DNA of 64,000 nucleotides, taken from NCBI RefSeq assembly GCF_921293095.1, contig NC_060254.1, positions 60,434,069 to 60,498,068 on the forward strand, in the 5' to 3' direction. This stretch comes from Ischnura elegans (Eukaryota; Arthropoda; Insecta; Odonata; Coenagrionidae). Every line of letters starts with the position of its first letter. Positions within the stretch are counted from its first letter, which is position 1. The position numbers and the translations under genes were made by a program. Of the stretch, positions 22,887 through 58,500 are shown in pieces. A model generated the notes under the pieces. That model saw only the letters and a list, made by a program, of their open reading frames with translations. It was not told where the DNA came from and did not search any database.

Positions 22887-23182
22887 AAAGTCGACTTTCT
22901 TCGGAGAGATGCCGTGGAACAACGTAACTAAAGTCAAACGAAGCTATCGTATTGCCCAGAATTTATTGACAGAGTAATACACGTGTTTTAATTGTTATAC
23001 AACCATCATGAGGTACTAATAAAAACTAAAATAAAATTTCTTTTAGTATCTGAGGATGATTGTATAGCAATGATAACGAAATAAAGTTTCTTTAAGTACC
23101 TGAGGATGATTACATAACAATTGAAACACGTGTAGCAATCTGTCAATAAATTGTGGGCAATACGATGCCTCCGTGTAAATTT
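22887..23182. mobile_element. Palindromic hammerhead-ribozyme element 1 (296 bp)
   Basis: Inverted arms of ~75 bp lie at 22940-23015 and 23096-23170, with an extra partial copy at 23045-23082. Each contains a hammerhead-like motif. The right arm has CTGAGGA (23100-23106), a weak stem II, GAAA (23123-23126) and a palindromic short stem III ACACGTGT. The left arm on the minus strand reads CTCATGA...AAAACACGTGTA and has lost G5. The flanking 12-mers AGCTCTAATTAT (22875-22886) and AGCTCTATTTAT (23183-23194) differ at one base and look like an aged target duplication. Confidence 0.65.
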
Positions 23183-23194
23183 AGCTCTATTTAT

Positions 23195-24530
23195 TTAAAA
23201 TGTTGCAATATTTACTCTAATATTTAAAACTGTTCTTTCATTAATCTACTACGGCAACAAAGGTCAAAATTTGTTTACTAGGGACGAGTCACCGATAACC
23301 CCGTGAAGAGCATCCTACCACTGGCTCCATTTAGGAGTCTACATAGACGACCTGCGGCCCCAGGACCGTATATTCAACGACGAATTGATGCAGTAGAGCC
23401 ACGACATTTCCGTATCATTGACGATGTATCACAGTGGCCCTAGTAAAGGGTCATTTAAATAATTTATCAATAACACAGTAGAAATAGAAAGTTACGATGT
23501 TTCACGAAATGCATACTCAAATTAGATTATTGGTGTAAATACAACTAAATGAATGAGTAATGTTGCAGTGCTATTTAAATTTTATGTACAAAAGTCATCA
23601 AAAGGAAGTGTATTTTACGCAACGAATACAGTATCATTAGCGATACGTGAAAATCGCGTATGCGTTAAATGCGATATTGATGCGATACACGTGAAGAAAT
23701 GCGACATTGGCGCGATTACGGCACTTTTATGATATGTAAACCGCAAATTTGCCTTTTCGATGGCAAAATTCGTAAATTTAGCGCCGAGCCCGCCCCTGAC
23801 TAGCTTCTGCAATGTTAAGCAAATATTTCTTGTTGTCTGCCAAGAAAAAAATTAGTTTCGTCATGCTACACTCCACACAATCCGGACACCAGCTAGCATC
23901 ATGGATGTAGAGAGGTTTTTCAGCCAGTACAATCTAGTTGTGATTGACAGACGCAACCGGTTGAAGGAAGAAAATTTTGAACTAGTTGAATGTTGATGTT
24001 CAACTAGTGTAAATGATATTCAGGCTACTAATATCATTTTAATTATTACCTTAATGTCTTATTCCTTAATTTATTACTGTTATACCCCATAATTATATGA
24101 GTGGATCGGAAGCCAAGCGGTACAAGTGATTTCTCTTTTATATACAGAGTCAGGTACAGAAATTAGGTATAGAAAACAAACGAGATCAATTAGATGTTTA
24201 GTAGTGCATTTGATTTTTCACTCGATGTTAGCACAGAACAGAGACTCACTCGTTTCCCTTGGCAACCAGGTTTTTGTGTATTTATTTTAACTTTACCTAA
24301 CTCCGTTGAGAAAAAAATCACTTGTACCCCTTTGCTTTCAAACCACTCATATCAACTATTTTGTATTTTTTTTCAAATAACTGTTTCATCACACTTTGCC
24401 GTCAACTACTAGTGCTACATTATGAAAATAAATAAAAAATAGAGGCTACAAAATGCTATACACTGTAATTGAAATAGCTGTAAAATTAAAATTAAAATGC
24501 TATTTTCACGCATCTTTAATTATAATATTG
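23195..24530. other. Non-coding stretch
   Basis: AT-rich. 23630-23790 is richer in 'gcgat' repeats ('gcgatacgtg', 'tgcgatattgatgcgatacacg'). No gene or element boundary is recognised. Confidence 0.45.
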
Positions 24531-25080
24531 AGAGAGAGAGAGAGGCGATGTCTACGACCCATTTCCTTCCTTCCCGGACCTAGCGGTTAAGTAACGACTC
24601 TTCGCAATGACACGAGGCGTTTCAAGGCCGAGGATTATTCATTTCCCTGTCGCGCTGATTGATGGCGATGATTTAAGAAGGAATGCGAGCAATAAGCAGG
24701 GGCATAAATAATTACGAGGCGACAGATACAGGCCGCATTAATTTTCATACGACATCGCTGCTACTTCTCTCAACTGGAGACTCGGCAGCAATTTAACATT
24801 CGCCTCAAGCATCCTGAAAGCTAAAAGCTGATAAATCGGGCTCGAGAGAGAAAAGCTTTGCGATAATTTCCACCCAGTGATTTTTTTCCATCCATTTCAG
24901 CAGAATAAAAGACCCGATCGTTGTCAGGCAATGGCCTATATCAGCAGCCAATTACCACGCCACGAACCTAGTTGAAAAATACGTGAGGCGGAGGATAAAG
25001 AAATGAACGAAAGTTTATAAAGAGATGGGACATAAAATTTACAAATTGGACAGCCATAAAGGAATCGCCGCCGATTGAAC
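24531..25080. promoter_or_regulatory. Candidate conserved non-coding / enhancer-like block
   Basis: After a short (GA)n tract at 24531-24544 there are about 450 bp of balanced-composition, non-repeated sequence with no open frame and many homeodomain-type sites. These include TGATTGATGG (24657-24666; a Hox/Exd-like composite), ATAAATAATTAC and CATTAATTTTC, and CAATTA near 24949. It differs in texture from the repetitive DNA on both sides. Function is inferred only. Confidence 0.3.
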
Positions 25081-25339
25081 CGTGACTTTGAGTCTATTAT
25101 GGATTAAATATAATTTAAATAAAATACAGAAGCTAAATTTGGTTGAAATGCAGACTAACCACACAGAGGCTTACAAACAGATCAACACAAGATTTTCCTA
25201 TCAAGTATTTGGCCACTATCGGCCCCAACGACTGGTAATTTACCACTCCTGGTCACACAAATAGCGGTTTGTTACTTGGAAATTTTTAGAATGTATATAG
25301 GCAATTTTGGATTCAACAGGCCGGGACGAAAGAATAAAT

Positions 25340-26800
25340 CACACCGATAGCGGGTGAAAACACTAATTTTTAAAAACGAAATGTGCTAACGCAGTATTTG
25401 TGATTATCACGGCCATAATATAGCGATGAAGTAGAGGAAAGAGGATTGGGGGTGAACGCTGTAACAATATAGTTATCCTAAGGGATAATGGACAAATCAT
25501 TATGCTCATCATCTTAGCTACGCCACTGAAAGGTTTGAACGGAAAGCAGAACATAGTACTACTTTTTAATCATGAGAAACGAAATGCTTTGACACAGCGC
25601 TTATGATTTACGAGGCGATAATGGAGCTGACTCAAGGGAGAAAGAACAAGTCATCATGATTATCATCTGAATTACTTCTTTCAATAAATAAAACTGATAG
25701 TTAGTGAAAACAATAATTTTTGAAAATGAAAAACGAAATGTGCGAACGCAGGTATAGTGATTATCACGGTCATAATAGAACTGACTTAAAGGTAAGAATA
25801 CGTATTTGTGGTAAACGTTGCAACAATAAATTAACTTAAGGGAAAATGGACAATGATATAGTTTATCAATGTACATATTTGGAAAGCTTCCATGGATACT
25901 AGGTAAAATTTCTCTTTTTTTTTGAACGCGAGTAACGAAAGACCTAGACACAGATGTTTAACGAAGCCATAATGGATCCAACTCAAAGGAGAAAGAACAA
26001 ATCATCATGTTTTTCAACTTAACTACGTTTTCCATTTGCTACAACTGATAGCGGGTGAAAACACTCATAAAATTGCCGGCTTCGGTGGCGGGGTAACGTT
26101 CTCGCCTGCCAAACAGGAGGTCGCGAGTTCGAGTCCCGCCTGGGTAGGTTTCCCCGGTCCAGGGCATGGTCGTTTGTTTACGTTTACTTGTTACATTTGT
26201 TGAACACCCCGGCCAATGGCCAATAAGAGCTGCATCCGCTGGTTTGAAAAATAAAAATTAAAAAAAAAACGAAATAAGCGAACGTAATTAATGCGTTTAT
26301 CACGGTCGTAATGGAGCTGATCTAAAGGTCGAATGACAAGAGAGAAGCAGACATACAAACTTTCAACCACCAACAGCGGAGTGAATATATAGGAGGAGGG
26401 ACAACAGTTTTTCAGTTTTTTACAGGACAAGGTCAGATAATCACAGTCATAACTGAGCTGGCTTAGAGGAAAGAAGATTGATTTGTGGTGAATACTGTAA
26501 CAATATTATTAACTTAAGGCAGAAAGGCAAAATCAACCTATTTATCATCTTAGCTATGTCTATACAAGGCTTCCATGGATGATAGGTGAAAGTGCTACTT
26601 TTTAAACGTGAGAAACGAAATGCTTTGGCACAGCATTCATGATTAACATCATTTATGTTCTTCGCCGTAACTACGTCTTACAATACCTACATAGAGGGAA
26701 AAAGCACTAATTTTTAAAAAGAAAACCGATATGTGCGAACGTGGTTATTGTGATTATCACGGTCATAACAGAGCTGATGTCGCGAGGCGAAGCAGACATA
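25340..26800. repeat. Satellite-like array of alternating ~350-bp higher-order units
   Basis: A sub-block 'gcgggtgaaaacactaattt...acgaaatgtgc.aacg...gtgattatcacggtcataat' appears near 25345, 25693, 26046 and 26688. A related sub-block 'gagaaacgaaatgctttg.cacagc' appears near 25570, 25920 (diverged) and 26608. A-to-A spacing is about 350 bp. A SINE interrupts the third A block. The scattered 'frames' here are composition artefacts. Confidence 0.7.
26075..26269 (+). repeat. tRNA-derived SINE (Gly-tRNA-like head) inserted in the array
   Basis: The head is GCCGGCTTCGGTGGCGGGG (A box region), CTCGCCTGCCAAACAGGAGG (Gly-GCC-like anticodon arm), then GAGTTCGAGTCCCGC (B box). A ~100-bp body containing 'gtttacgtttacttg' and 'ggccaatggccaataagagc' follows, ending in an A-rich tail. 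It splits the array text 'aaaacactcat...' from '...aacgaaataagcg', so it postdates the array. Same family as 942-1094. Confidence 0.82.
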
Positions 26801-27098
26801 CAAACATTCGACCACCAACCGCGGAGTGTCTAAATATACGAGGTGGGGAGAGGACGGAGGAAGGGACAACAGTTTTTTACACGGACAAGGTCAGGGACGG
26901 TTCAAGTCTTATTTTTCTACCCTCCTCCTCCTACTCTTTCAAGCGCTCCTACTTTGACCTTCCATACTCCCCAGCCTCCATCTTCCGCGAGATTTACTCT
27001 CCTCCTTTTTAACTCCCTCCCTTTCTTCTTCTTCTTATTTCAACGGGCGAAATGACTGTCGGGAAGTCCCGACTCTCCTCCATTCCAGTCCGCAACGC
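26801..27098. other. Pyrimidine-rich non-coding DNA
   Basis: A C/T-rich run (26915-27045) creates overlapping open frames that are low-complexity. No gene is supported. Confidence 0.5.
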
Positions 27099-27479
27099 GA
27101 GCGTCATGAAAAGTGCCAAGAGGAGGCCTGCAAAGAGGAGGCCCAATTCCATCCCACAGAGGGCTGATTTATGTTACCACTTCGGTCGCATTTCAATCGG
27201 TTTTCAAAAATGTCTGCGGCGCGGTGATGGATCCAGTGGGATCCAATTTTCTTTCCAATAATTTGAATTATAATGTTTGTCATTGCGAGGAATAGCATTG
27301 TTAAGCAACGAATTTGACATTTAAAGCGAACGTGTTCCAGTTCGATCCACTTTTATTTCCAATATTTTGAACTATAACGTATGTCATTGCGAGTAATATC
27401 ATTGAAAAGTAATGAATTTGATAGATCACATCATCATGTAAATAAGTTTCGGTTAATATCCCTAGTTATACCTTATTTC
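27099..27479 (-). repeat. Dispersed family X copy, left part (interrupted)
   Basis: Reverse-oriented relative to 29451-30242: 'gaggaggcccaattccatccca', 'accacttcggtcgcatttc', 'ggttttcaaaaatgtc', and 'gtttgtcattgcgaggaata' followed by a partial second copy near 27360-27410. It stops at 'taccttatttc' (27469-27479), and the element's sequence resumes at 28256 after a 765-bp insertion. Confidence 0.7.
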
Positions 27480-28013
27480 AGGACATTAGGAAGAGAAATG
27501 CATTAGCTAAGGAGGCGTTCATGAACAGGAAGGAGCTTCTGAGAGGTTCGCTATGTAAGAATTTAAATAAAAGGTCATCGAAGAGTCTGATCATGAGTGA
27601 AGCGCTTTACGGCGTAGAAACATGGACGCGTAGGAATGGGGACGAGAAAAGACGGTAGGCATTTGAGATGTGGGTGTGGCGAAGAATTGAGGAGGTGAAG
27701 TGTACGGAGCGGAGGGGGAACGATGAAGTGCTAGACATGGTGGGTGGGGAGAGGCAGCTTTTAAATGAGATACGGAGGAGACAGAAGGCATGGATGGAGC
27801 GAGTACTTAGCGGGGAGGGGACGTTGAAAACAGTGTAAGAGGGTAGAATGTTGGGTAAACGATGGAGAGGAAGTAAAAGAATAGGATTTTTAGATAGAAA
27901 GAAAGGGAGTAGGCCTTATTGTGAATTGAAGAGGGAAGTGCTTGATGGGGAGGGAGGATCTCAGTATTCATCTCAACTACTCCATGGAAACCTACCTTAA
28001 TCGGTAGAATACT
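27480..28013 (+). mobile_element. 3' fragment of a non-LTR retrotransposon (LINE C family)
   Basis: The plus-strand frame reads ALYGVETWTRRNGDEKRR, a stop, AFEMWVWRRIEEVKC, NEIRRRQKAWMERVL and KTV, a stop, EGRMLGKRW, then a 3' end with 'accttaatcggtagaatac'. This is the familiar LYGSETW...FEMW.WRRM...GHVLR...EGR..GKR C-terminal stretch of arthropod LINE ORF2. The stops and the 5' truncation make it dead. The same tail occurs at 60735-60755 and, diverged, at 31052-31075. Confidence 0.8.
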
Positions 28014-28016
28014 TTA

Positions 28017-28248
28017 AAGGCCGTTTAACACGGGGCACGTACTTGCACAATCTGACGTGTGTACGAAAGCGCAGTCAAAATTGCATCGTGTAAAGCGGTG
28101 AATTGCTAGAACACATGCGAGAATGCGTGGACGTGAGATGGCAAAATAGCCCGTTCCAATTTCGTTCATGCATTCACGCAATTCCACGCCATTTTAGAAA
28201 TTAACGCAGCTCTAATCTGCGCAATTCCGTACTCCGTGTAATAATACC
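28017..28248. mobile_element. MITE with TTA duplication (PIF/Harbinger-like), copy 1
   Basis: The left end is AAGGCCGTTTAACACGGGGC after TTA (28014-28016). The right end is a degraded CCGTGTAATAATACCT followed by TTA (28249-28251). The interior is ~95% like 40248-40478, including 'tgctagaacacatgcgagaa' and 'ttccacgccattttagaaat'. It sits at the 3' end of the LINE fragment. A 3-bp TTA duplication is typical of PIF/Harbinger, but no transposase supports the call. Confidence 0.7.
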
Positions 28249-28255
28249 TTATTTC

Positions 28256-28445
28256 TACAAGAAACTCTGATCAATTTGTCTGTCAGCGACGCGTGCAGCG
28301 ACTTTTCTAAACCCTTTAAAATGCGGGATTTGCGACAACACATTTAGACGCCGACTTGAAGATGCTCTTTTGTTACATTCGTGGTCGGGAAGTCCAGACT
28401 CTCTTCCATTCCAGCCGGCACCGAGAGCGTCATGAAAAATGCTTT
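28256..28445 (-). repeat. Dispersed family X copy, right part
   Basis: Continues the copy broken at 27479: 'actctgatcaatttgtctgt', 'cagcgacgcg', 'gcgacttttctaaac' and 'gacaacacatttagacgcc'. The same text in the same order occurs at 46670-46760 (reverse-oriented copy) and, complemented, at 43775-43890. Confidence 0.7.
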
Positions 28446-29433: not shown

Positions 29434-29450
29434 GTGACTTGCCACTTTTC

Positions 29451-30242
29451 AGTGCTATTCCTCAAAATGATAAACATTATACTGCAAAATATCGGAAAAA
29501 AATTGGATCACATTGCACTCATCGGCGCGCCGCGGACTATTTTGAAAACAGATTACAATGCGATAGAGAAATCAGCCTTCTATGGGATAGAGTTGGGCCT
29601 CCTCTATGCAGTCCCCTTAGAGGAGGGATTCGATGCCGGGATAGTAGTGTTTTGATGCCCAAGGGGAATGAGGTGTAATTGAGGGTGTTAACCGATATTT
29701 AAGTACATAATGACGCCATCTAAAACATGAATAACTTTCCAGTGCTATTATTCAAATGAAAAAAACATTATAATGCAAAATATCGGAAAAAAGTGGATCG
29801 CATTGCACTCATCGCCGCGCCGCGGACATTTTTGAAAACAGATTACAATGCGATAGAGAAATCAGCCTTGTATGGAATACAGTTTGGCCTTCTCTATGCG
29901 GTCCCCTTGGAGGAGGGATTTGGTGCCGGGATAGCAGTGTTTTGACGCCCAGGGGAAATAAGGTGCAAATGAGGGTGTTAACCGATATTTAAGTACATAT
30001 TGACGCCATCTACCACATGAGTAACTTTTCAGTGCTATTCCTCGAAATTAAAAACATTATACTGCAATATATTGGACAAAAGTGGATCGCATTGCACTCA
30101 TCACCGCGCCGCGGACATTTTTGAAAACAGATTACAATGCGATAGAGAAATGTGCCTTCTTTGGGGATAGAGTTGGGCCTTCTCTATGCAGTACCCTTGG
30201 AGGAGGGATTCGATGCCGGGATAGCCGTGTTTTGACGCCCAG
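29451..30242 (+). repeat. Dispersed family X, three tandem units of ~290 bp
   Basis: Unit starts ('agtgctatt') lie at 29451, 29741 and 30031. Each unit contains 'gattacaatgcgatagagaa', 'gagttgggcc.tctctatgc', 'gtccccttggaggaggga' and a closing 'gggtgttaaccgatatttaa'. The third unit is cut off by a G run at 30260. The units are ~90% identical. Single diverged copies of the family occur near 22.5, 27.1, 43.9 and 46.4 kb. Confidence 0.82.
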
Positions 30243-32760: not shown

Positions 32761-32936
32761 TGCGAAATATCCACAGAGAAAATTCATTCGCCTTGACCAG
32801 GATTCGAACGCGGATCCCCCGATTTCCAGTCGAGTACTTTAGCCAGTTAAGCTACCGATGCGTCATTATTCCCTGTGGATCCTGGTTCGAATCCTGGTCA
32901 AGGCGAATGATTTTTTTCCTCTGTGGATTTTTCGCA
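32761..32936. repeat. Head-to-head tRNA-like pair (inverted SINE heads)
   Basis: Arms 32761-32817 and 32878-32936 are inverted copies, including 'attcgccttgaccaggattc'. On the minus strand 32866-32795 reads as a near-complete tRNA-like head (GGTAGCTTAACTGGCTAAAG, anticodon arm, then GCGTTCGAATCCTGG). The right arm carries B box GGTTCGAATCCTGG on the plus strand but no full A box. It is probably a SINE dimer or hairpin rather than a functional tRNA gene. Confidence 0.65.
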
Positions 32937-38511: not shown

Positions 38512-38975
38512 CCGTGAAAATTTTTAAAACAAAAATGGCAACTTCCACACTTTAATGCATAACTTCACTACCTAAAGTGGTTTCGACACTGCCATTTTTT
38601 ATGTTTTTTTCCTTGAGAATGACATAATGTCACAATCATGGTCGGTAGTGGACTTGTACAATAAAGAGTGGACATCACCATTTCTTGTTTATTTTAATCA
38701 CTGATACACCGCATTCGTTCAATTGTATTAGGCTCAACTATGTGGAAGTTAATACTCGAAAATGAAAAGGAGACCGTTGATTTCCACTAATTTATTTTGC
38801 CCGTATGACATGTTTCGAACCATAGAGGTCATTATCAAGTACCGCACTTGATAAAGACCTCTATGGTTCGAAACATGTCGTAAGGACAAAAACAATTAGT
38901 GGAAATCGACGAAGTCTCCTTTTCATTTCCGATACATCGCATTTCCACCACGTAAAGCCTAAAACGATTTCATAC
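38512..38975. mobile_element. Palindromic hammerhead-ribozyme element 3 (464 bp, four motifs)
   Basis: A perfect 12-bp direct repeat ATCCTTGTCGAT (38500-38511 and 38976-38987) brackets the element. Inside are two successive inverted pairs. Arms near 38538-38600 and 38611-38680 are diverged; arms 38731-38840 and 38846-38959 are ~85% alike. Hammerhead-like cores alternate in strand: minus near 38575, plus 38611-38647, minus 38804-38841, plus 38845-38886. Each has CTTGA(T/G)AA in place of CTGATGA, a stem II such as TGACC/GGTT, then CGAAACATGTC. The cores are decayed, so activity is doubtful. Confidence 0.7.
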
Positions 38976-38987
38976 ATCCTTGTCGAT

Positions 38988-41992: not shown

Positions 41993-42389
41993 ATTGTCAA
42001 TATTCATTTTATTTTAACATTAACTATTATCTTTAAATTATAAAAATTAACTCATATTACCAAAAATTCGTCAAATAATATAATATGAAGGTGAAACCAC
42101 ATATGATAAAGATTTCCTAAAATTTTTGAATATGTACCTCTACTTGTTTTTGAGACCTAATTTTTTTCCTAACCTACTGCAAAATCAGCAAGAATGCCTC
42201 GGCACTATTGGCACAGTACCTAGAATATCGGTTGGTACTCAAAGGGTTGAGAGAAAAATTCTTTAAGTGCACCGAGCGCACTCCGATGTCCTTATACCGT
42301 TTGAGGTAGGTTTATGTGATGATATAAGTAGACGAAGTTAGCTAATCACCCTGGCCTGTCCCCCTCACAAATTGAACCTACCTCATAAG

Positions 42390-42873
42390 ACAATGACAAA
42401 TGAAGAGCAAACTTAGTGCATGTCCACAGTAATTTTATTTGGTACGACGCGTTTCAGCGACCTTCGAGCAATGGGAAATTACCAGGAGGAGAAAACGCAA
42501 GGAAAATCTTTTGAATGACATTGAGTTCCTGAGTCATTCCCCGTTGTTAGCCCTCCCCCCTCTCAAACCTTCAACCGAACCCCAAATCCTTACGTATCCC
42601 AACCACCTCCCCACCCCTTTCCCCCATCCTTTACCCCCCCAAACCCTCTCCCACTTCCGTCAACTCATAAATATACCCCTCCCATTTGCATGATTGTATA
42701 TATATATGACTGCTTGACGAAAATATGGCATTTTGTACCTGATGATAGCGAAGTAAGGTCGCTGAAACGCGTCGTACCAAATAAAATTACTGTGGACATG
42801 CACTAAGTTTGCTCTTCATTTATCATTGTATCATTATGTTCCACAACATCTCGCCGAATACCGTTGAATACAT
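42390..42873. mobile_element. Palindromic hammerhead-ribozyme element 4 (484 bp)
   Basis: A perfect 12-bp direct repeat CTACCTCATAAG (42378-42389 and 42874-42885) brackets it. Inverted arms of 75-80 bp (42390-42464 and 42755-42830) are nearly identical. The right arm completes a hammerhead; the left arm carries only its 3' half on the minus strand. The ~290-bp spacer has a frame starting near the ribozyme remnant that reads FEQWEITRRRKRKENLLNDI, faintly like the N-terminus of Penelope-like ORFs, then loses coding character in C-rich DNA. Confidence 0.8.
42731..42781 (+). ncRNA. Type I hammerhead ribozyme, best-preserved copy
   Basis: Stem I is TTTTGTAC (42731-42738) pairing with GTACCAAA (42774-42781) with one bulge. 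The core is CTGATGA (42739-42745), then one unpaired T, stem II AGCGA/TCGCT (42747-42751 and 42759-42763) with loop AGTAAGG, GAAA (42764-42767), a very short palindromic stem III ACGCGT, and cleavage expected after GTC (42771-42773). All invariant core bases are present apart from the extra T between A9 and stem II. The weak stem III is typical of Penelope-type hammerheads that act as dimers. Confidence 0.75.
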
Positions 42874-42885
42874 CTACCTCATAAG

Positions 42886-43774
42886 GCCTATTCACTATCA
42901 TTCTCCCTATAAATTGTAACCTTTGAATCAGTCATCTAACCTACCAACAGCACCCCATAAATTAAATTATCCTACCACATTTATGCATATTTAAAGAAGC
43001 AGAAATTGCACAAATTTATGCATAAATTTCCTAAATTCACTCTGACACTTGAAACTGAAAAGATTGCGTTGCGTGCATGGAAAAAGATGATTATCATGAA
43101 ATTGTAATAAATTTCACACATTTAGTATTTTCGGCAAAGTTGAAAGAATAGGTACCTACACGATCCAAAGCGTGAGGCTTCAAACGAATTCATTATTAAG
43201 AATTCTTAGCAAAAAATTACCATAAACTAGTTAAAACATCGCTTTCAGTTCAAAGTCTTTCCGTTGAAAGCATGATAATGATCAAACTACCTCATATTTT
43301 AGCTATAGTTAAACATAATTTTTTTAAATAAGAGAAATTTTTACCGAGAAATAACTTTACAGTGTCCTCTGAACTGAAGGGAACAAAGGCACTGATCCAG
43401 GACACGAAAACCGCGCAATATGAGGACGCAGAGGTCAGTGAACCCTTGATCTGCCAGCGACACGAGAAGCACTGAAAAAGAGTTGTACTACATTCCTCAC
43501 GCTAGACATCACAGCGGCAATCGTGATTACGGGAAAAAAAATTCCATCTTCAAAGATTACAAATGAGTAAGGAAGCTTCAGAGCGAGATAAGAAACTTGA
43601 TAAATTAGCATAAACGAAACGTCACCTCGAACTATAAGAATCACACGTCCACTAAAAAACTTTAAGGAAAACTGCACCAGCGAATTCACTCGAAGTTCGA
43701 CCAAGAATCGAAGTCAACGTGGATGTATGCAATGGAAAGAGAGACCCACGAGTATTACAAAAGAGGATCCCTTA
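42886..43774. other. AT-rich non-coding DNA
   Basis: No repeat or domain is recognised. Confidence 0.45.
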
Positions 43775-44130
43775 AGTAGGCCTAAAAATGTGTTGTCACC
43801 TACCGCGTATTTAAATGAGTTTACAGAAGTCGCTACTCGCGTCGCTGACGGACAAATAGATCCGATTTTCACGGGGAAATAAGGTAGGTATAATAATTAG
43901 GGGTGCTAGCCGAAATTTATATACACAATGATGTTATACATCAAATTCATAACTTTTCAATGATATTCCTCGCAATTATAAACATTATAATGCAAAATAT
44001 TGAAAAAAGTGAGTGTATTGCACTCATCACCGCGACCGCGATTATAATGCGACCGAATTGGCAAAAGAAATCAGCCTTCTATTGGATGGAATTGGGGTTC
44101 CTCTACGCAGACCCTTGGAGATACCATTGC
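43775..44130 (+). repeat. Dispersed family X copy
   Basis: Plus-oriented like the 29.4-kb triplet but with the additional 5' part: 'aaatgtgttgtcacc', 'gcgtcgctgacggacaaata', 'tataatgcaaaatattgaaa', 'attgcactcatcaccgcg', 'gaaatcagccttctattgga' and 'ggttcctctacgcag'. Confidence 0.7.
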
Positions 44131-45691: not shown

Positions 45692-45728
45692 GGTTTTGGC
45701 CAGCTTCTTTCGATTCTAGCCCATCGTG
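45692..45728 (-). mobile_element. Solo Transib-type terminus
   Basis: On the minus strand it reads CACGATGGGCTAGAATCG followed by AAAGAAGCTGGCCAAAACC. The inner half is the same as the 4.26-kb Transib terminus (CACAGTGG..., AAAAAAGCTGGCCAAAA), and the CACNATGG start fits the Transib consensus. No opposite end was located within the window. Confidence 0.55.
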
Positions 45729-46371: not shown

Positions 46372-46770
46372 TCGGAAAGACCTCCGACCAAGGGGCTGCA
46401 TAGAGGAGGCCCAATTCCATCCCATAAAACACTGATTTCTGTTGCCACTTCGGTCGCATCATAATCAGCTTCGAAAAATGTCAACAGTGCAGTGCGAAAC
46501 AAAGATCGACAATACGATCCATTTTTTCCCAATATTTTTCAATACAATGTTTGTAATTGCGAGGAATAGCATTGAGTTTTCTATCCATTTCATAGCTTAC
46601 ATAATTACATGCATAAATTTCGGTTGATACCACTAATTATTCCTTGTTATTTCCCGCGAAACTCGGATCAATTTGTTCGTCAGCGACGCGAGTGGCGACT
46701 TTTGTAAACTAATTTAAATGTGCGGTGGTTGACAACACATTTAGAGGCCGAGTTGAGGATCCTCTTTAGT
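46372..46770 (-). repeat. Dispersed family X copy
   Basis: Reverse-oriented: 'atagaggaggcccaattcca', 'tgttgccacttcggtcgcat', 'atttttcaatacaatgtttg', 'attgcgaggaatagcattga', 'atttcggttgatacc' and 'gtcagcgacgcgagtggcga', ending with 'gacaacacatttagaggcc'. This is the most complete single copy; it shows that the two broken pieces at 27.1 and 28.26 kb belong together. A weaker copy follows at 46855-47335. Confidence 0.75.
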
Positions 46771-47784
46771 AATATTCGTGCGCACGGCGTGGCTGTGGAG
46801 TCCAAAAAGACAAGCGAAAGGCGGAATGCGCAATGAGAAAGACCTCCCATCATCGGGGTCACATTAAGGGGACCCTAGTCAGTCCCGTAGAGGCTTAATT
46901 CATGTTATCACTTAAGATGCATTTAGTCGGTTTCAAAAATATCCGAAGCACGCCGATGAGAACAGTGTGTGGCAGTGGGAGACTAAATGACAAACAAAAG
47001 ATGGGATGCGCACTGATTGTGAGAAAGACAATTGAGAAAGACAAGGAGAGAGTCCATCATTAAAACGGAGAATCTGAAAACTATTTTATTTTCGATGGTG
47101 ACTATATAATATTTATAATCGTAAGGAATTGCACTGAAATGTACATAATAATTACATATTAATACATTTCATGTATCACATTATAATGAACATAAATCTC
47201 AGCAGGCAACAAAGTTAATTGTTGAATATTTCCCCGCGAAATTCAGGTCGCTCTGCTCCTAAGAGACGCAAGTGTGGACTTTAGTTAGCCTATTTGAATG
47301 CGCGGTGGATGACAATACACCTAATGGCCGAAAGGAGAACTATTGTAAGACAAACATGTGACCGCAGCTCATGATTTAAAAGACATAAACAGGAGAGCAG
47401 CATGACATAACACCTGCAAAAGGCGTTGAGTCACTAGTTTAAGACTTCATCGGAACACTTGCTCAATTTTCTCGAGGGATAAAAACATTTTTGCGTAGGT
47501 GGTCCGAGAGACGGACCACCTGGACATTAGGAACGTCGCCACTGGTCAATTCAAACGGCGGTGTTGCCAAATTTCAGTCAAGAGACAAAACAATACCCTG
47601 CAAATCGCTCACAATGACCAATCGCGCCCGACCTCGAAGTACATTTTAAAAACATCCGCATATTCAGTAATATATCTCAAGAGAAAAAAGTTGAAGACCT
47701 TACACGAAAATAAATAATGCCAATTATAGGAATGATATGGAGAGGGTAATTGTGATATGCTTAAAGCTGCATATGTTCACTTTA

Positions 47785-47927
47785 TGTTTTCCTGGATATC
47801 ACACAATTACTTACGCCACTTCTTTTTACAGAGCGCGACCCGGGTTTCAATGAATTATAATCATCTTCAGGCGCAAATTATGACTTACAATGGACTACCA
47901 CAAGGTTAATCCAGAGTTGGAGAATTT
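47785..47927. mobile_element. Hammerhead-bearing insertion 5 (143 bp) with 13-bp duplication
   Basis: A perfect direct repeat TATGTTCACTTTA (47772-47784 and 47928-47940) brackets 143 bp that the neighbouring tandem copy at 48430-48480 lacks. The insert contains one hammerhead on the minus strand (47833-47874). No frame is present. Size and structure suit a short non-autonomous retroelement. Confidence 0.75.
47833..47874 (-). ncRNA. Hammerhead ribozyme-like motif
   Basis: Minus strand: stem I GCGC (47874-47871) pairs with GCGC (47836-47833). The core CTGAAGA (a permitted CUGANGA) is followed by a weak stem II, GAAA, palindromic stem III CCCGGG, and the expected GTC cleavage triplet immediately before the second stem I strand. 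The core is intact; stem II is only about 3-4 bp. Confidence 0.65.
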
Positions 47928-48870
47928 TATGTTCACTTTATTAATACATAATACAGACTTGATCAGTCAAAAGAGGAGCATGTGACGATAACTCATACCT
48001 TCAAAGACAAAAGCGGGACAAAAGCACTGGCAATGACATAACACTAGCAAAAGTTGGAAAAAGACAAAAACGAGACAGCAGCATGACATGACACAGGCAA
48101 AAGTCGTTTGAAACACCTGTAAAAGCCTTCATCGGAACACTTCGAGAAAATTGAGCCTCAATTTTCTCGAGAGAAAAATTTTACTGCGGAGGCGGTACAC
48201 GAACTGACAACCTCGACGCTGTGAACCTCACCACTGGTCACTTCGAGCGGCGGTGTTGCCAAATCTCAGTCAAGACACAAAACAACACCCCGGCCCTGCG
48301 GATAACTAGCAATAACCAATCGGGCCCCTCCTAAAAGTAAATTTGAAAAATAACAAGCATGTATCCCTCAGGTAAAAATATTTCAGCGCCTTACACGCAA
48401 AAAAATGTTGAAAATGAAATATGTTAAGCACAGAATGATGTGGAGTGGGGAATTGTGGTACATAAACAGATACAAACACATTATTTAATACAAAATTCAG
48501 ATTTGATGAGCCAAAAGAAGAAAATGTGCCCATAACTCATGCTTTCAAAGACAATAGCGGGACGAATGCATGACATAACACAGAAAAAACGCGTTTTTGA
48601 CACTAGTTTAAGCCTTGCACAATTTTCTCGGGGGAAAAACAAATATACTGCGGGGGCGGTACACGAACCGACTACCTGGACGCTGGGAACGTCGCCACTG
48701 GTCACTTCGAGCGTCAGTGTTGCCAAATCTCAGTCAAGAGACAAAACAACACCCGACCATGCAGATCGCTCGCAATTACCAAGCGCTCGCCTCCTGCCCC
48801 TCCCCCAAGACCATCATCAAGTGTGGACCCCCCTTCTCACCCCCTTAAGGGAGACATTTAGTCCCACCTA

Positions 48871-49149: not shown

Positions 49150-49984
49150 TTAGCCTATCAAAACATTCGATCTGAAAGTCAAACATCAAGAGACCAATCC
49201 GAATGCCGCATCGAAAGAAGAGGCACGCGTCACTACTATCACATTTATGACATGACATTATGACATCTTATGAAATTTCCACTTAAGATAGAAGTTTGAA
49301 TGATTCGAATTTTCGATTATTGAAAAAAAAAATGTCACAAATATATCAATGCCGAATTTTTTTTTCAACCATTACAATTTCTGCAACATATACTTAAAAG
49401 CCCATCAAAACATTATATCTGAAAGTCAAACATAAAGAGTTCGATTCGAATCCCGTATCGAAAGAAGAGGCACGCGTCACTACTATCACATTTATGAAAT
49501 GACATTATGACATTTTATGAAATTTTCACTTAAGATAGAAGTTTAAATGATTCGAATTTTCGATTAATGGAAAAAAATGTCGAAAATATTTCAATGCCGA
49601 ATTAAATTTTTTCAACCATTTGAATTTCTGCAACATATACTTAAAAGTCTATCAAAACATTCGATCCGAAAGTCAAACATCAAGAGATCAATCCGAATGC
49701 CGAATGGAAAGAAGAGGCGCGCGTCACTACTATCACATTTATGACATGACATTATGACATTTCATGAAATTTTCACTTAAGATAGAAGTTTAAATGATTC
49801 GAATTTTCGATTAATGGAAAACAATGTCGCGAATATTTCAATGCCGAATTAAATTTTTTTCAACCATTAGAATTTCTGCAACATATACTTAAAAGTCTAT
49901 CACACATTCAATCTGAAAGTCAAACATCAAGAGATCGCAGTGAAGTTTTCTCGGGTTTCGCACCGGGTCAGGTCCTCCATTTCT

Positions 49985-50031
49985 CCTTCCAACGTTTCGA
50001 TGGACAACTCGCCCATCGTCATCAGGGATTC
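49985..50031 (-). ncRNA. Hammerhead ribozyme motif, left arm (minus strand)
   Basis: Reverse complement of the right-arm motif: CTGATGA, one unpaired C, stem II GATGG/CCATC, GAAAC, then GTTGGA. All core bases are conserved. Confidence 0.7.
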
Positions 50032-50067
50032 AGGAATCCAATTGGATTCCTGGATCATTGGATTCCT

Positions 50068-50114
50068 GAATCCCTGATGACGATGGGCGAGTTGTCCATC
50101 GAAACGTTGGAAGG
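50068..50114 (+). ncRNA. Hammerhead ribozyme motif, right arm (plus strand)
   Basis: CTGATGA (50074-50080), one unpaired C, stem II GATGG (50082-50086) with CCATC (50096-50100), GAAA (50101-50104), short palindromic stem III ACGT, a GTT cleavage triplet, and stem I TCC (50071-50073) with GGA (50109-50111). The single extra base between A9 and stem II recurs in the 42.7-kb copy, so it seems a family trait rather than damage. Confidence 0.72.
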
Positions 50115-50520
50115 AGAAATGGAGGAGGACCTGACACGGTGCGAAACCCGAGAAAACTTCACTGCAATTGTTCGCCGGGAAAAAACTAAAAATTATATCA
50201 AGAGATCAATCCGAATACCGAGTGGAAAGAAGAGGCACGCGTCACAACTGCCACATTTATGATATTTTTTAATTCCTCCGCTTTAGATCGAAGTTTAAAT
50301 GATTCGAATTTTAGATTATTGGAAAAAACTGTCGCAAATATTTCACTGCCGAATTAAATTTTTTCAACCATTACAATTTCTGCAACTTATACTTAAAGAG
50401 TCCATCAAAACATTAGTGTAACATCAAGAGATCAATCAAAATGCCGAATGTCGAGAAGAGGCACGCATCACAACTGCCACATTTATGACATTTTTATATT
50501 CCTCCGCTTAAGATCGATCC

Positions 50521-52218: not shown

Positions 52219-52225
52219 CATATTA

Positions 52226-53688
52226 TGATATTATTATTAAATATGTATTATAATAACTTTACAAGTGGGCACTTGGCCCGGTGGTAACATACATAAACGT
52301 CAGCAATGTACGTTTTTGCCTTGGATAACAATACCCTACAATAAATTATAAAAACATCCCTCTTCAACCTATTCTTAAATGTATGTATACTTTTGGGGAG
52401 GGGTTCGAGAATCTTTTCTGGTAGATCGTTCTAATCGAGCACTGTTCTATTTAGGTACGAAAACTTCTTAACGTTAGTCCTTTGTGATCAGAACTTTACC
52501 TAAATTTGGTGATTAAAGTATCGCTTTAATATTTACTTCCCTAGATCTTCTTATGCTCTTTCCCTGGTAACTGCTATCAATATCTCGCATAGCCTGCTCC
52601 TTTTTCTCCTTTGCTTCAAGCCATCCCGTCAGAGATCGTGGATCATTTCCTCAACACTTTCCTTTTAATTATATCTTCCCAAGACATCCCTGGCTGCTTC
52701 CCTTTGCATTTTCTCCAATTTGTAATATCCTGTCCTTTCTTGTGTATGTTCGGATCGTCTACGGATCGCCCACTGTGGTATTAGAAATTAAACGGGTAGG
52801 CAATCAATGTTTGGCAAGAAATAAATCAAATCTTTCAACGAAAAATGTCAAAATCACTACTTTAGATTTTTGGTCCTTGGAGGTAAGATGACGCAAGGCT
52901 ATTTTTTTCCTTATATGTACACTGACCCAGATCTTTGAGGTCATGTATTTCGACAATACCACATTCCGAAAGGACAAACGCTGAAATAGTAAACGTGAGA
53001 GCGCTTGTAATCGGAAAAACAAAGACAGCACAGATTTCGTGTTTTGGGATTTTCCATTTTTCCCTCCAAAAAGGCTTTACATCGACAACCTCCAAAAACA
53101 ATTTTGAAGGACGAATAACTATGAACTGGGGAAACCAGCTGACTTTCCATTCCGATTAAGCTCCTTTCTAACTGCTGGTGGACCGTCTAACTACAAAGGT
53201 CACATTGATTTTCGATTTGAAAATCGACGAAAATAATATCAAACCCCAACTTGCATGGCATAAACTTGTAGCTTTTCATTTTCCAGCCACGATTAAGCTA
53301 ATCTGATTCCTCCCATGATCTCCCCTCACTACGCATTGTTTTAGCGTCTACGCATTTTAATATGTGGCATTTATTTGATTTTATTGGTAGTTATTAGAAC
53401 ATGTATAGATCATATAGGTGATTCCTAGATCATAATTGTGACCATTTATTAATTACATCATTGGTAAGCTATTTTGCAAGGAAAAAATATATATCATATT
53501 TAAGTCCATATTCTACACAAATAGACTAAAAGATAGGGAATATACACCTAATTACTTTCCACAACGCTATAAGTATACGAAATAAAAAAACAGCCATGCC
53601 CTTGGTTTTACACCAAGCAAATACTCAATAGCTACAAAAGGGCCAGCTAAAGGGGAATGATTGTGGATACAGTTTTACAGTCAAGGCC
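52226..53688. other. AT-rich non-coding DNA
   Basis: Small frames on both strands at 52800-53160 overlap and have no domain. No element ends are recognised. Confidence 0.45.
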
Positions 53689-53690
53689 GC

Positions 53691-54003
53691 TACACACGGC
53701 GAATGATTTCATTCGCATGGTCATTCAGCATGATCATGCGCATGATCATTCGCCGTGTATAACGAAACAATTCGCGAATGGACAAACGCTGGAATAGCTT
53801 CATGCGCATGATCATTCAGTGAAAATTGGAACATGTTCTATTTTGCTCGCATTATCCTGTGAATGATCACGTGATCATTCAGCATGATCATTCGCATGAT
53901 CATTAACCGTGTATAGCGGCCTTCATACACGGTGAATGATCATGCGCATGATCATGCTGAATGACCATGCGACTGAAATCATTCGCCGCGTATTGCGGCC
54001 TTA
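53691..54003. mobile_element. Palindrome-rich MITE-like element(s), GATCATGC family
   Basis: The termini are AAGGCCGCTACACACGGCG (53691) and CGCCGCGTATTGCGGCCTTA (to 54003), with an internal junction GTGTATAGCGGCCTTCATAC at 53911-53930. This suggests two elements fused or one nested. The interior is full of short palindromes: ATGATCATGCGCATGATCAT near 53732, 53810 and 53935, and TCACGTGATCA near 53867. No coding capacity. A target duplication was not found. Confidence 0.6.
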
Positions 54004-54593
54004 CGAAACGAAACCCACTCCTCCAACAACCTACCCCAAAAACCTCCGGGAACAAAAGGGAAGCGCAGGAGAGTGAAAGAGGGTTTGGGGTAAGGGAAGT
54101 AGGGCCACTGAGGAGCGGAGGGAGAGAGGAATACTTTTGGGGCGATCTGACCTAGGTCACGGCAGACGGAGTCTCAGCAATTGGACGGGGAAAATGAGGG
54201 GTAAGGGAGAAGGAAGGGGTTGGTATAAGCTGAGAAAAAAAAGAGTCCGAGGAGGGAAAGAGTGGGAATAGCGAGGGAAAATACGGACGCCTTCGAAGGG
54301 AGAGAAAAACTTGAAAAAAAGAGAGCAATGGAGCCAGTCACCTCACCCGCCATTACCCTCCCGAGCCGGCTATAGCGGCCTGCATGGGGAAGAGTACGGA
54401 CGCCCTTTCCCGAAATAACAGCCTCATTGCCATTAGTTCCAAACCATGCCCCAGATCCTATCACATAAAGCTTTCAAGCCTCGATCCCTCCCCTCCCACG
54501 GATTCACCCTCCCTCCCCTCCTTCCCCCAACCCCTCCATTCCCTCCCCACGCGTAAACCTCCCTGTTCATTCCACACACACACGTTTCCATCC
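54004..54593. other. Non-coding, purine- then C-rich
   Basis: A strong strand bias (G/A then C/T) creates frames on both strands. No gene is recognised. Confidence 0.45.
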
Positions 54594-55095
54594 CGTGATA
54601 AAAATACGTGGGGAGGATAAAAACTATATAGAGATAGGATATAGAGATACTCTCGCGTGGGTTATTTCGATGGCTCGATTAATCGAAATCATCATCGATA
54701 CCTTTGCCCATCCACTATTTAATGTAATAAAAATACGAGGCGCAGATAAAACCTATATAGAGAGGACATAGATATGATTTCGTGTGGGTTTGTTCGATGG
54801 CTCGATTAATCGAAATCATCATCGATACCTTTGCCCATCCAATAATAAATGTAATAAAAATACGTGATCAGACGTAAAATATAAGGAGAGGACATAGGTA
54901 TGCTATCGCGTGGGTTTTCTATGGCTCGATAAATCGAAACCATCATCGATACCTTTGCCCATCCAATAATAAATGTAATAAAAATACTAGGGCAGATAAA
55001 AATATAGAGAGGACATAGATATGATCTCGCGTGGGTTTGTTCGATGGTTCGATTAATCGAAATCATCATCGATAGCTTTTGCCAATCCACTATTT
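54594..55095 (+). repeat. Tandem array, four ~125-bp units
   Basis: Unit starts ('gt.ataaaaatac') lie at 54595, 54724, 54851 and 54974. Each includes 'agagaggacatagatatgat', 'cgcgtgggttt.ttcgatgg' and 'tcgattaatcgaaatcatca', followed by 'tcgatacctttgcccatcca'. The inner 'tcgattaatcga' is palindromic. Confidence 0.88.
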
Positions 55096-55589
55096 TCCAC
55101 GTCGCTGGTTTTAATTGACCGGGCACTTGATTTTCGATCGCTGAGGCCGATGATTACTACACTCGTTGTTCTTGGGTTGTTGGAAGTCAATCGATGAGCA
55201 CTAATGACTACCCACGATGGGTAATTGAAGTCGAGTTCGTCGCGTAAACCAGCCTTAAGAATTTATAACGGCAATCGAAGAACATCGAAAAGCGATAACC
55301 AGCGAAAATCGGTGATAAATGTAGTCACAACAGTAACTTACAAAAATAAAAATTTGAAATTGACAACGTAAATATCAATAAAGAACAATCTATTCAACTA
55401 CTCTCGACAGTTGAAAAGCGAAGTTCACAAACCACTGACAAATATAGAAAACAATAGAAACTCGATGAATACCAACAGTCGTACTGAAGCAGGACAGCAG
55501 CGATCGACATCTTCGAGATGAATATGTGTTAATCGATTAAAATATAGTATTAAAAGTAGTATGAAATGCCGGCCACAAAGGACCAACGT
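55096..55589. other. Non-coding stretch
   Basis: Contains several ATCGA-rich motifs but no gene or element boundary that I can define. Confidence 0.4.
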
Positions 55590-55882
55590 AAAGAAATTCT
55601 CGTACCTCAACAGGACGATTACGGAATGGAATAGACTCCCTGCAGAACTGTTTAAGCCCTACCCTAACAACTTAAGGATTTTCAAGAAGAGGTGTAAAGG
55701 GTTTTATTGGAAAATTAATATCATTGCATTTTAAATATTCACTAACTAGTTTCATTTTGGTGATATATTTTCATTTACAATGTTTTTTTTTATTTTTTTT
55801 ATTTTGTATAAACTGTTACCACCTGGCAAATAGCCAACTTGTAACTTGTACAGTATAATACTAATAATTTACTTTTTAGGCG
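55590..55882 (+). mobile_element. 3' end of a non-LTR retrotransposon (same family as 17430-17688)
   Basis: The last ~50 codons of ORF2 read YLNRTITEWNRLPAELFKPY, then PNNLRIFKKRCKGFYWK, and end in a stop near 55733. The 3' UTR has 'accacctggcaaatagccaa' and ends in a TAATA-rich tail. RTITEWNRLP is the characteristic C-terminal box of CR1/L2/Jockey-like ORF2. It is a 5'-truncated copy; the C-terminal frame itself is intact. Confidence 0.82.
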
Positions 55883-57287
55883 TCACGACCAAGTTACTAG
55901 ACGTCGATTTCACCGGGCCGAAATCGATTAAATCTAATTAGCACGAATTAGCATTATCAACGAAACATTCGTGTAATTTCGACAGTAAGTGTATTAGATC
56001 GACCACGTTTCCAGCATAATATATATGATCATTTGGCAAAATCGACAAGAGTTAATAGAGGTAAAACTACAGAAGTCCTCTGAAATGCTACGCATCACAA
56101 ATTTTCACAAATAATCGCCCAATGCTTCATCCACATCTACATTCCACTCCTTTTGCGTTTGGCGAGGGGTGTTAGAACAACGGTCGTTAAAAACGTCAAA
56201 TTACATTGAAATTCAAAAAAAAAATGTAATACAGAGCGCGTTGGAGGTATTTTACTGCTGATTCTCATCTACCATATGTTTAAGTCCTTCTTTGATCCGA
56301 TGGAATAATAACTCCCATTCCTATCTGTACAGCATAATACCGGTCCTCTATTATCGTATCTGTCTGACCTAGAAACACAACAACGATTGAAGATGGATGT
56401 TCTCCGAGACGCTTTTAAAAACAACTGTTCTCAACTGCTACAGCAATCTAAGGCAAGCACATGGCCTCCGAAGCTCTAGCGAATCTTAATTCGTGTATTA
56501 GATGTGTAACTATAGTTCTCACAATTAAGAGTATATTTCATATAGTAATTGTTGCATGTAGTTTTTAATCCTAAATATGAATAGAACGTTCGTCTGTAAG
56601 ACCCCCCCCCAGAAAAAATCCTGGATGCGCCCTTGAAAATTACCATTACTTAGTAGTTTTTATCAAAGATACATCGAACTTCCATCAATTCAAGACTGAA
56701 ACGATTTTATACGTCTGTACATTCTAACATTAGGACATTTATAACTCCACTTTCTCCTAAATACCTCCTAACACTCAATCGAGAACGATATGATTTCTCT
56801 AATGAGAGAGGGATGGACTTGAGCGATAGAGGATGTGGGTATTACAACGGCCAAGGGCCCGCAGCCAAACTCACCCCACCACGCACTCGGCAAACAACAT
56901 CAAGCAACTGAGATAAACCTCTCCAACAACCAGTGGACCATCGCCCAAACCGACAATTACAACCTAGTCGAGAGGAGCGGGAAAGATATGTGGTCCGAAA
57001 AAAAATACTGATATCAAAATAGATATTATGGCCCACGGGCGGAGCTAAAAATCATCCTCGGCGTGGTGAGAAAGTTATCCCGACCTCAGCCACACATTTC
57101 TTTCTCGTCTTAGGGATAAAAAGAAGGTAAGGTACAAGAAAGAAGAGGGGAACACTTAGCTGAGCCCCATTCCACAGGTAAGAGTCATTTAAAGGAGACT
57201 TCACCAACCTTGGCAAATGTCGAAGCATGGAAAAAGTTACTTTATAAGTAGTCACGCGCACGGGTGCGAAGTTATGCACACCCAGGA
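55883..57287. other. Non-coding stretch with a hAT-MITE end near 56.6 kb
   Basis: 'ccccagaaaaaatcctggat' with 'gcgcccttg' at 56606-56635 is a solo right end of the hAT MITE family of 5.3 and 8.4 kb. Nothing else is recognised. Confidence 0.45.
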
Positions 57288-57480
57288 AGAAGTTCGCCAC
57301 GAAAATATAATTAGCTTAACCGCGATTCGAACCAGGATCTCCCGATAGCGGATCAAGCGTGTTATCCAATTACAGAGAAGACGACTTGGTGATGTAAATG
57401 GCTAACACGCCAGACCGGCAATCGTTAGATCCGGGTTCGAATCACGGTTTAGCCAAATATTTTAACGAGGCGAACTTCAC
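57288..57480. repeat. Head-to-head tRNA-like pair (inverted SINE heads)
   Basis: Arms 57288-57375 and 57393-57480 are inverted. The plus-strand right arm reads GTAAATGGCTAACACGCC, then GGGTTCGAATCACGG (B box). The minus-strand left arm reads TAATTGGATAACACGCTTG, then GGTTCGAATCGCGG. Outside the boxes 'gaagttcgcc' pairs with 'ggcgaacttc'. Both copies fire away from a common centre. Confidence 0.65.
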
Positions 57481-58140
57481 TCATGGTATATAACTTGGCA
57501 AATGGACTCTTGCCGTCGGATTGGGCGTCGTGGCTCCGTTGAAAATAGGAAGTATTTGTAAACATTAAAGGGAATCAAGGTACTATCTCTTATAAGTATG
57601 ATACTCTGCTAAGGTGATGCGATTATCATTGACATCTACGTTTCAAATCTATTCATTTAAAGCAACTACTAGCTATCTGGCATCCTTCATAAACTTACTT
57701 AGATACAAGGAGCGTGCCACTACGGAAAATAAACATGTAAACCGCAATAAAGCATATTTGTAGGCTTTAAGACTTTTACAAACAATACCAATTCAAAAGT
57801 AATTTGAACCTCAAAACAAAGCACACTTTGAGCTTCGGCAAAGGAGCACACAGGCGAGAATAAACAATAAAAAATATTCCTTTTTTGGGTAGGAGTGTAA
57901 ACATGTGAAAATAGTAACTGCCAAATAGCATGAGGCGAAATTGGCGGACCCATTCAGCGAAAAAACCCACCGCAGGAAAACGCACACACAAGAAGAGGGG
58001 TGTGAAAAACAAGCGAAAACCTACTGAGTGAAAACTAATGTCAATTTACACGCAAAATACAACATAGTTAATGAGGTACACAGTATACACAAATATTAAA
58101 CACATCGGGAGATTGGAACGGTTTACCAACGATAGTTTAT
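57481..58140. other. Non-coding stretch
   Basis: No repeat or domain is recognised. Confidence 0.4.
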
Positions 58141-58500
58141 GATCCCTTCCCGCGTAACCTGAAGACCCTCTAGAGAAGATTAAATAATATTGAATTTAAA
58201 GGGTATTTTTCATTTTTGCATGTTTATTACATTAACGGTAAAGTTTATATTATTACTCGCCTTGGTATTTCTCCATGTACTTATATCTTTTTTTATTGCA
58301 ACCCTTCCCGCGTAACCTGAAGACTCTCGACCCTCATGGGAAGGATAAATAATATTGAATTTTAAGGGTCTTTCTCATTTTTGCATGTTTATCACATTAA
58401 CGGTAAATTTGATATCAATAAATATGTGCAAAGCTAAGCCCTGATGATAGTTTAAAATAAATAGAAACGTTGGCTAACACTTTTTTGCATAACATACATT
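58141..58500 (+). mobile_element. Direct-repeat pair followed by hammerhead motif (element 7)
   Basis: Two ~100-bp direct copies ('cccttcccgcgtaacctgaa', 'gataaataatattgaattt.aa', 'cattaacggtaaa') lie at 58145-58245 and 58307-58407, and a hammerhead motif follows at 58435-58478. Direct terminal repeats next to a ribozyme resemble the pLTR arrangement of Penelope-like elements. No ORF is present and the boundaries are undefined. Confidence 0.5.
58435..58478 (+). ncRNA. Hammerhead ribozyme-like motif
   Basis: Stem I AGCC (58437-58440) pairs with GGCT (58472-58475). The core is CTGATGA (58441-58447), one extra T, a weak A/T stem II, GAAA (58464-58467), and ACGTT before the cleavage position. 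The core is complete; stem II has a mismatch at its base. Confidence 0.6.

Follow-up and report, generated by a model that had tools for sequence, protein, structure and literature searches.

The 64,000-nucleotide stretch of the Ischnura elegans genome analyzed here (the window; C9:60434069-60498068 in an assembly of 1.72 Gb and 110 contigs) carries five small insertions, designated E1, E6, E2, E4, and E3, each with a hammerhead-like ribozyme core or its remnant, opposed arms, and flanking target duplications of 11 to 14 bp. These insertions are probably dead-on-arrival products of Penelope-like elements (PLEs) of the GIY-YIG type, generated by reverse transcriptase (RT) priming from both cut strands of the target, with the two products joined midway. 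The copies examined display a head-to-head geometry, target duplications, a single tail per resolved two-armed insertion (with one exception), arms sharing alleles, unique centers, and linkage of the E2, E3, and E4 types to PLE genes. The features concerned are the following.

22875..23194, no strand: E1, insertion 22887-23182 with a 12-bp duplication at 22875-22886 / 23183-23194 (AGCTCTAATTAT at 22875 and AGCTCTATTTAT at 23183, 11/12 identical)
E1 left arm, minus strand: tail outward at ~22887-22929 (tail limits from arm symmetry)
E1 right arm, plus strand: without a tail
23100..23134, plus strand: E1 core, CTGAGGA..GAAACACGTGTA; core intact, stem I poor
38703..38943, no strand: E6, old palindromic insertion 38716-38930 with a duplication at 38703-38715 / 38931-38943 (GATACACCGCATT at 38703 and GATACATCGCATT at 38931, 12/13 identical)
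E6 arms: left with a tail at ~38716-38757, right without a tail; ribozyme core broken
42378..42885, no strand: E2, insertion 42390-42873 with a 12-bp duplication at 42378-42389 / 42874-42885 (CTACCTCATAAG at 42378 and 42874)
42390-42464, minus strand: E2 left arm, without a tail
E2 right arm, plus strand: tail at ~42830-42873
42697..42707, plus strand: E2 TATA run TATATATATAT, 32-42 nt upstream of the E2 ribozyme core
42739..42773, plus strand: E2 hammerhead-like motif, palindromic stem III ACGCGT
47772..47941, no strand: E4, insertion 47786-47927 with a 14-bp duplication at 47772-47785 / 47928-47941 (TATGTTCACTTTAT at 47772 and 47928)
E4 left arm, minus strand: carries the ribozyme, without a tail
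~47887-47927, plus strand: E4 right arm, tail only
47837..47870, minus strand: E4 hammerhead-like motif, stem III ACCCGGGT
49926..50207, no strand: E3, palindrome 49937-50196 with an 11-bp duplication at 49926-49936 / 50197-50207 (ATCAAGAGATC at 49926 and 50197)
E3 arms: left, minus strand, without a tail; right, plus strand, with a tail at 50166-50196
49991..50025, minus strand: E3 left-arm hammerhead-like motif, stem III ACGT
50074..50108, plus strand: E3 right-arm hammerhead-like motif, stem III ACGT
49679..49689, plus strand: paralogous empty site for E3, one copy of the target 11-mer in a neighboring tandem unit
58441..58471, plus strand: E5, single hammerhead-like arm, 88-89% alike to the copy in locus L061

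Judged by their sequence, the window motifs qualify as candidate minimal type I hammerheads, with a CUGANGA..GAAA core, stems I and II, and a short stem III; minimal hammerheads have been reported in PLEs (PMC7229834). A strict scan that required CTGANGA followed by GAAA, a palindromic stem III, H17, and at least 3 bp in stem I returned five motifs, at 42739+, 50074+, 50025-, 47870-, and 58441+, against a mean of 0.01 and a maximum of 1 in 100 dinucleotide shuffles. The hammerhead-like cores claimed in the initial annotation are thus real in these five and in the E1 core at 23100+, a sixth motif outside the strict set; the counterpart core in the E1 left arm is mutated, and the 38.8-kb copy (E6) retains just a GAAACATGTC half plus a broken core. 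Stem III is palindromic and loop-less, and its sequence differs between families while self-complementarity is kept; the sequences in the window (ACACGTGT, ACGCGT, ACGT, ACCCGGGT, and ACATGT) differ as previously described. E2 and E3 have a well-defined stem II; that of E1, E4, and E5 is weak. In locus L067, one arm has the stem III ATCCGGAT and the other ACCCGGGT, i.e., two symmetrical changes preserve the palindrome. Rfam models gave no hammerhead match in the window at either the gathering score or E<=5, the minimal motifs there being devoid of a stem III loop, and a genome-wide search with RF00163 gave none but recovered none of its controls either, so that this negative carries no information.

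All five insertions are flanked by duplications, as first proposed; these span 11 to 14 bp, and two of the five (E1 and E6) contain a mismatch. The inverted-arm plan attributed to four loci was verified in E1, E6, E2, and E3. E4 is the same two-armed plan in extreme form, although it looked one-armed at first; its second arm is only about 40 nt long, and the 45 leading nucleotides of the minus-strand copy correspond, in inverted order, to the tails of L068 and others. E3 sits inside a tandem array (49152-50491, period of ~247 bp), which therefore supplies an empty site: the unit at 49679 contains the 11-mer once, and both of its flanks match. Flanking repeats of 9 to 11 bp around the single-armed E5 were judged unconvincing as a target duplication.

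Linkage to PLE genes was addressed by a genome search for the Pfam GIY-YIG domain, in which 150 matches were scored from 2199 first-look candidates and 30 loci were fetched. A hammerhead-like motif lies near the gene in 27 of these 30 loci, often on both strands; L069, L072, and L074 have no such motif. The family here termed PLE-B is represented by a 605-aa frame in L081 with matches to both RVT_1 (2.2e-7) and GIY-YIG (9.3e-7). E2 arms adjoin PLE protein sequence (reverse transcriptase/GIY-YIG) in 19 of 30 loci, and the window copy of E4 matches nine of the fetched GIY-YIG loci, a link that rests on GIY-YIG. For E3, the connection is provided by L091 alone, a copy with longer arms whose center encodes a GIY-YIG relative (BLASTP against a PLE frame, 8e-14), followed by a TATA box and then the E3 arm; no RT was seen for E3, and loci L031-L060 and the window gave no PLE protein match. 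The frames of at least 100 residues in L061 contain no YIG. E2-, E3-, and E4-type arms are thus identified, from sequence comparison, as ends of PLE families carrying GIY-YIG genes, so that different stem III sequences mark different PLE families. The E1 and E6 families, surveyed by arm coordinates alone, presumably belong to PLEs as well, as their anatomy suggests. The proposed tie to PLEs holds for the E2 and E4 types and, through a single locus, for E3. The PLE traits encountered here are a pseudo-long terminal repeat (pLTR) with a minimal hammerhead, an optional inverted pLTR, a tail, and a short target duplication.

The head-to-head arrangement recurs throughout the genome. Among the 150 scored GIY-YIG matches, all 16 pairs lying no more than 20 kb apart are minus-then-plus, with the 3' ends outward; two of these pairs, both on C9, are spaced identically (2653 bp) and may represent a single locus that was duplicated. 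Genome-wide, exact ribozyme patterns had 335 (PLE-B), 285 (E2), and 399 (E3) matches, and the reversed control had none. Orientation was counted in the first 100 matches listed per pattern, where adjacent ribozymes (within 10 kb) formed 70 head-to-head, 0 tail-to-tail, and 3 same-strand pairs over the three families; head-to-head pairs comprised 62 (PLE-B), 48 (E2), and 30 (E3) of the 100 matches listed for each. Pair gaps did not exceed 200 bp in 14/31 PLE-B, 17/24 E2, and 13/15 E3 pairs among those matches; each of the three families thus includes compact dimers. Two same-strand PLE-B pairs (C3:138851372/138854366 and C4:134289777/134292771) are exactly 2994 bp apart and are presumably tandem full-length PLE copies.

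Of the two arms of a resolved insertion, almost always one and only one carries a tail of 30 to 45 nt. This is the case for all five two-armed insertions of the window, including E4, whose second arm is the inverted tail only. Both E2 arms were seen in 11 of 30 fetched loci, and each of these 11 has one tail (on the plus strand in 6 and on the minus strand in 5), with duplications of 11 to 14 bp in eight, 10 bp in two, and 7 bp in one, whereas 110 mismatched pairings reach 10 bp at most. Selection of PLE-B insertions was by gene and blind to tails, and 11 of 12 distinct two-armed insertions have one tail (L078/L079 and L083/L084 are the same insertions, each counted once), as does a thirteenth split across L085/L086. 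Exact flanking repeats of at least 8 bp surround 10 of these 12 (that of L082 is of low complexity), a count made without control pairings. In arm-plus-tail searches covering the 40 best places per family, opposite-strand partners of tail-bearing arms numbered 23 in E3 (24 pairings, as two tail-bearing arms share one partner), 25 in E6, and 17 in E1, and every one was head-to-head. No partner bears a tail; the longest extend past the inner start site by 11 nt in E3, 12 to 13 nt in E6, and ~11 nt in E1. Visual comparison of the E1 and E2 tails, which come from otherwise different families, shows a shared motif resembling GTTCCACrrCATCTCkCCGAA that may be a conserved signal for RT initiation.

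Further insight into how the two arms arise came from the 30 best of 40 scored E3 copies, drawn from 2277 first-look candidates. Exact duplications of 11 to 15 bp (mode, 13) flank 21 of them, and 870 mismatched left/right pairings reach no more than 10 bp. The centers, 11 to 36 bp long, are distinct in 30/30 copies, and 12 of them contain arm words of at least 8 nucleotides, compared with 5% of shuffled centers. Three family-splitting alleles agree between the arms of a copy in 11/11, 12/14, and 14/15 of the copies with the minor allele; these allele counts exclude the first columns, where the center varies, and the last, where three arms overrun. The mean arm distance within copies (0.055) is below that of all 2000 re-pairings (mean, 0.069). 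Rarer shared changes are mostly discordant between arms, as later mutation would give. Allele sharing together with distinct centers indicates that both arms come from one source and that their join is new each time. The palindrome thus appears, on this comparison of copies, to be remade at each insertion and not inherited as a unit.

The inner limit of the arms is also informative. Both arms of the 30 E3 copies start near TTGGATTCC, and genome-wide the arm pattern has 1371 matches versus 184 for the adjacent upstream pattern, both within three mismatches; most E3 arms seem to stop at this boundary. In L091, the TATA box (TATATATA) is located 32 nt upstream of it, consistent with arms that copy the 5' end of the mRNA. 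The first E3 ATG lies inside the ribozyme, with the two outer ends 86 and 119 nt away, and in the right-arm motif of the window this ATG opens a frame through arm and tail that may be the PLE N-terminus. A PLE of Anolis carolinensis, PAc, starts copying mainly 111 to 118 nt into its open reading frame, its tail spans the distance from one start site to the other, and its ribozyme mutants still insert in vitro (PMC11167929). These observations fit a PLE mRNA whose 5' end is copied by a ribonucleoprotein (RNP) bound there, and the E3 boundary would then be the mRNA start.

Under the preferred reading, a target would be cut with a stagger of ~10 to 14 nt, which host fill-in would convert into the duplication, and each cut strand would prime one cDNA. 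The cDNA initiated at the outer RT start site would become the arm with a tail, and that initiated at the inner site, 30 to 45 nt upstream, the arm without one. Both would run toward the RNA 5' end or stop early, and their ends would be joined with filler to give a head-to-head inverted dimer with a variable center. Both-strand priming in vivo and end joining are the steps that we infer. For short symmetrical copies such as those of E3, the template would be the PLE mRNA 5' end, a segment that begins at transcription initiation, reaches as far as the RT start sites, and includes the hammerhead and the first codons; in longer copies, reverse transcription would instead begin at the start sites of the downstream pLTR in a tandem transcript. 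The form of stem III suits an intermolecular (dimeric) ribozyme, and one may speculate that it pairs the two templates. A stronger version, in which PLE integration is obligatorily two-ended and a dimeric RNP carries two sister RNAs joined through the palindromic stem III of a dimeric hammerhead, each protomer taking one start site and one strand, we consider unlikely. Were it true, the ribozyme would be an RNA-dimerizing, template-pairing device and the one-tail rule its footprint.

Several observations weigh against two-ended priming on the mRNA 5' end or limit its generality. Of the 100 ribozyme matches listed for each pattern, 38 (PLE-B), 52 (E2), and 70 (E3) have no exact head-to-head partner within 10 kb. 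Exact matching hides partners, however, because just 399 of the 1371 E3 arm matches are exact, and this ratio leads us to expect, as an indirect estimate, a paired share of ~30% if pairing is complete and arms vary independently. Nineteen of 30 E2 loci have no second arm inside the fetched locus, and tail-bearing arms have no partner within 3 kb in 16/40 (E3), 15/40 (E6), and 22/39 (E1) scored places. Seven of the 16 lone E3 arms recur with longer arms in the upstream-pattern list, and the rest are unexplained; the two-armed form may thus not be universal. The PLE-B insertion L077 has a tail on neither arm, one of which ends early. The E3 copies were chosen by likeness to the window palindrome, and tail-containing queries are blind to tail-less insertions. 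Pfam recognized no GIY-YIG domain in the L091 piece, the upstream E3 pattern may simply be more diverged, the corresponding position in PLE-B has no evident TATA box, and the putative transcription start is read from genomic sequence, not from transcripts.

The initial annotation read the loci as several independent lineages of a non-autonomous two-strand ribozyme element, i.e., foldback elements whose palindrome is transcribed and copied whole with PLE enzymes acting in trans. The hammerhead-like insertions, duplications, head-to-head arms, and PLE link on which this reading was built stand, but the independent lineages are not supported, since the E2-, E3-, and E4-type arms belong to PLE gene families and the palindrome is seemingly not inherited whole. 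The ~1371 E3 arm matches, the compact size, and the presence of both arms in all 30 fetched E3 copies (picked by palindrome likeness) are what such foldback elements would produce; yet no center is common to any two of these 30 copies, most lesser shared changes are discordant between arms even where the three subfamily alleles are concordant, gene-bearing copies show the same geometry, and short copies end before the TATA region seen in L091, which makes this explanation distinctly improbable. A foldback or terminal inverted repeat (TIR) DNA transposon, or a miniature inverted-repeat transposable element (MITE), was rejected, as the ends are asymmetrical by the tail and the duplication varies in length. 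Concordant alleles in both arms and centers rich in arm words would also follow from snap-back self-priming, in which the cDNA folds back to copy its own arm, or antisense RNA primes itself, before the hairpin is inserted. That mechanism has been proposed for the Penelope element of Adineta vaga, where head-to-head was the commonest arrangement (PMC3846280). We regard it as improbable here, given that one of the arms lacks the tail, ending at a nearly constant position directly next to the duplication, that arm lengths can be very unequal, down to the tail-only E4 arm, and that a PLE enzyme studied in vitro extends both strands of the target (PMC11167929).

A further alternative invokes metazoan retrozymes, type I hammerhead repeats moving via circular RNA. 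Their motif type and small size agree with the insertions, and duplications longer than 4 bp have been reported for them (PMC7229834). This origin is nevertheless extremely unlikely, as the insertions are linked to PLE genes and the copies are head-to-head; among the matches listed, 70/73 adjacent pairs have this orientation, in place of tandem monomers of a few hundred base pairs, and the same-strand orientation accounts for 3/73, including the two pairs with the 2994-bp spacing. Two-ended PLE priming itself leaves a subsidiary choice as to whether the 5' boundary of the small dimers marks the mRNA 5' end or an RT stop at a folded, perhaps dimeric, hammerhead. In E3, ~16 nt separate the boundary from the CTGANGA core on its 3' side, and short-gap dimers are present in all three surveyed families, both of which accord with a stop; arms that traverse the whole ribozyme before ending, and a TATA box at about promoter distance in E3 (L091) and E2, argue for the mRNA end, leaving the RT stop possible but rather doubtful.

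Two-ended priming has a parallel in LINE-1 twin priming, in which two cDNAs from two strands are joined head-to-head. In L1 inversions, the two cDNAs derive from different regions of a single RNA, whereas both arms here copy the same RNA end. Among the closest known systems is the Penelope/Poseidon-type PAc, which shares with the present families an RT with a C-terminal GIY-YIG domain, a hammerhead at the start of the open reading frame, a tail delimited by two RT start sites, and cleavage and extension of both target strands (PMC11167929). In PAc, the tail is described as an optional extension that only some copies have, and the two strands do not differ in their start sites (PMC11167929), unlike the one tailed and one tail-less arm found nearly always in the resolved two-armed insertions here. 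The A. vaga Penelope resembles our insertions in its inverted pLTRs, mostly head-to-head, a 31-bp tail optionally on one inverted pLTR, duplications of 8 to 10 bp, and junction palindromes; it was described from few copies, with self-priming proposed, whereas many copies of several families, with unique centers and allele sharing, favor two-ended priming here (PMC3846280). Metazoan retrozymes are likewise small non-coding repeats with type I hammerheads, but they are tandem monomers with circular RNA, and the accessible part of the report mentions neither a mirror-image form nor a one-sided tail (PMC7229834). Inverted pLTRs, tails, hammerheads, duplications, and a head-to-head preference are thus published PLE traits, while the strict one-tail rule and the abundant 5'-end dimers look new; within the portion of the literature searched, a strict one-tail rule, allele sharing between arms, and an mRNA 5'-end origin of small dimers are nowhere stated. 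What the window offers is a known element class with an unusually informative insertion footprint, rather than a new element.

PLEs are described as a third class of eukaryotic retroelements. The in vitro study of PAc left the later integration steps for validation (PMC11167929). Clean two-armed insertions with a near-invariant one-tail rule, shared alleles, and fresh centers make the question of PLE integration countable. They likewise provide a possible account of a class of small palindromic ribozyme repeats, which might without it be catalogued as unknown repeats or MITEs.

Other repeats of the window are of different kinds. A large inverted repeat of GCATGATCATTCGCCGTGTAT-like words at 53683-54002 has no ribozyme core and looks TIR/MITE-type. 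On the minus strand, a tRNA-Ser(GGA)-like gene (32788-32862) is followed by an inverted partial copy within 32776-32918, perhaps a tRNA-derived short interspersed element or a pseudogene pair. Finally, a ~290-bp tandem repeat occupies 29444-30242, with diverged relatives near 27125-27320 (inverted), ~43747-44120, and ~46388-46780.

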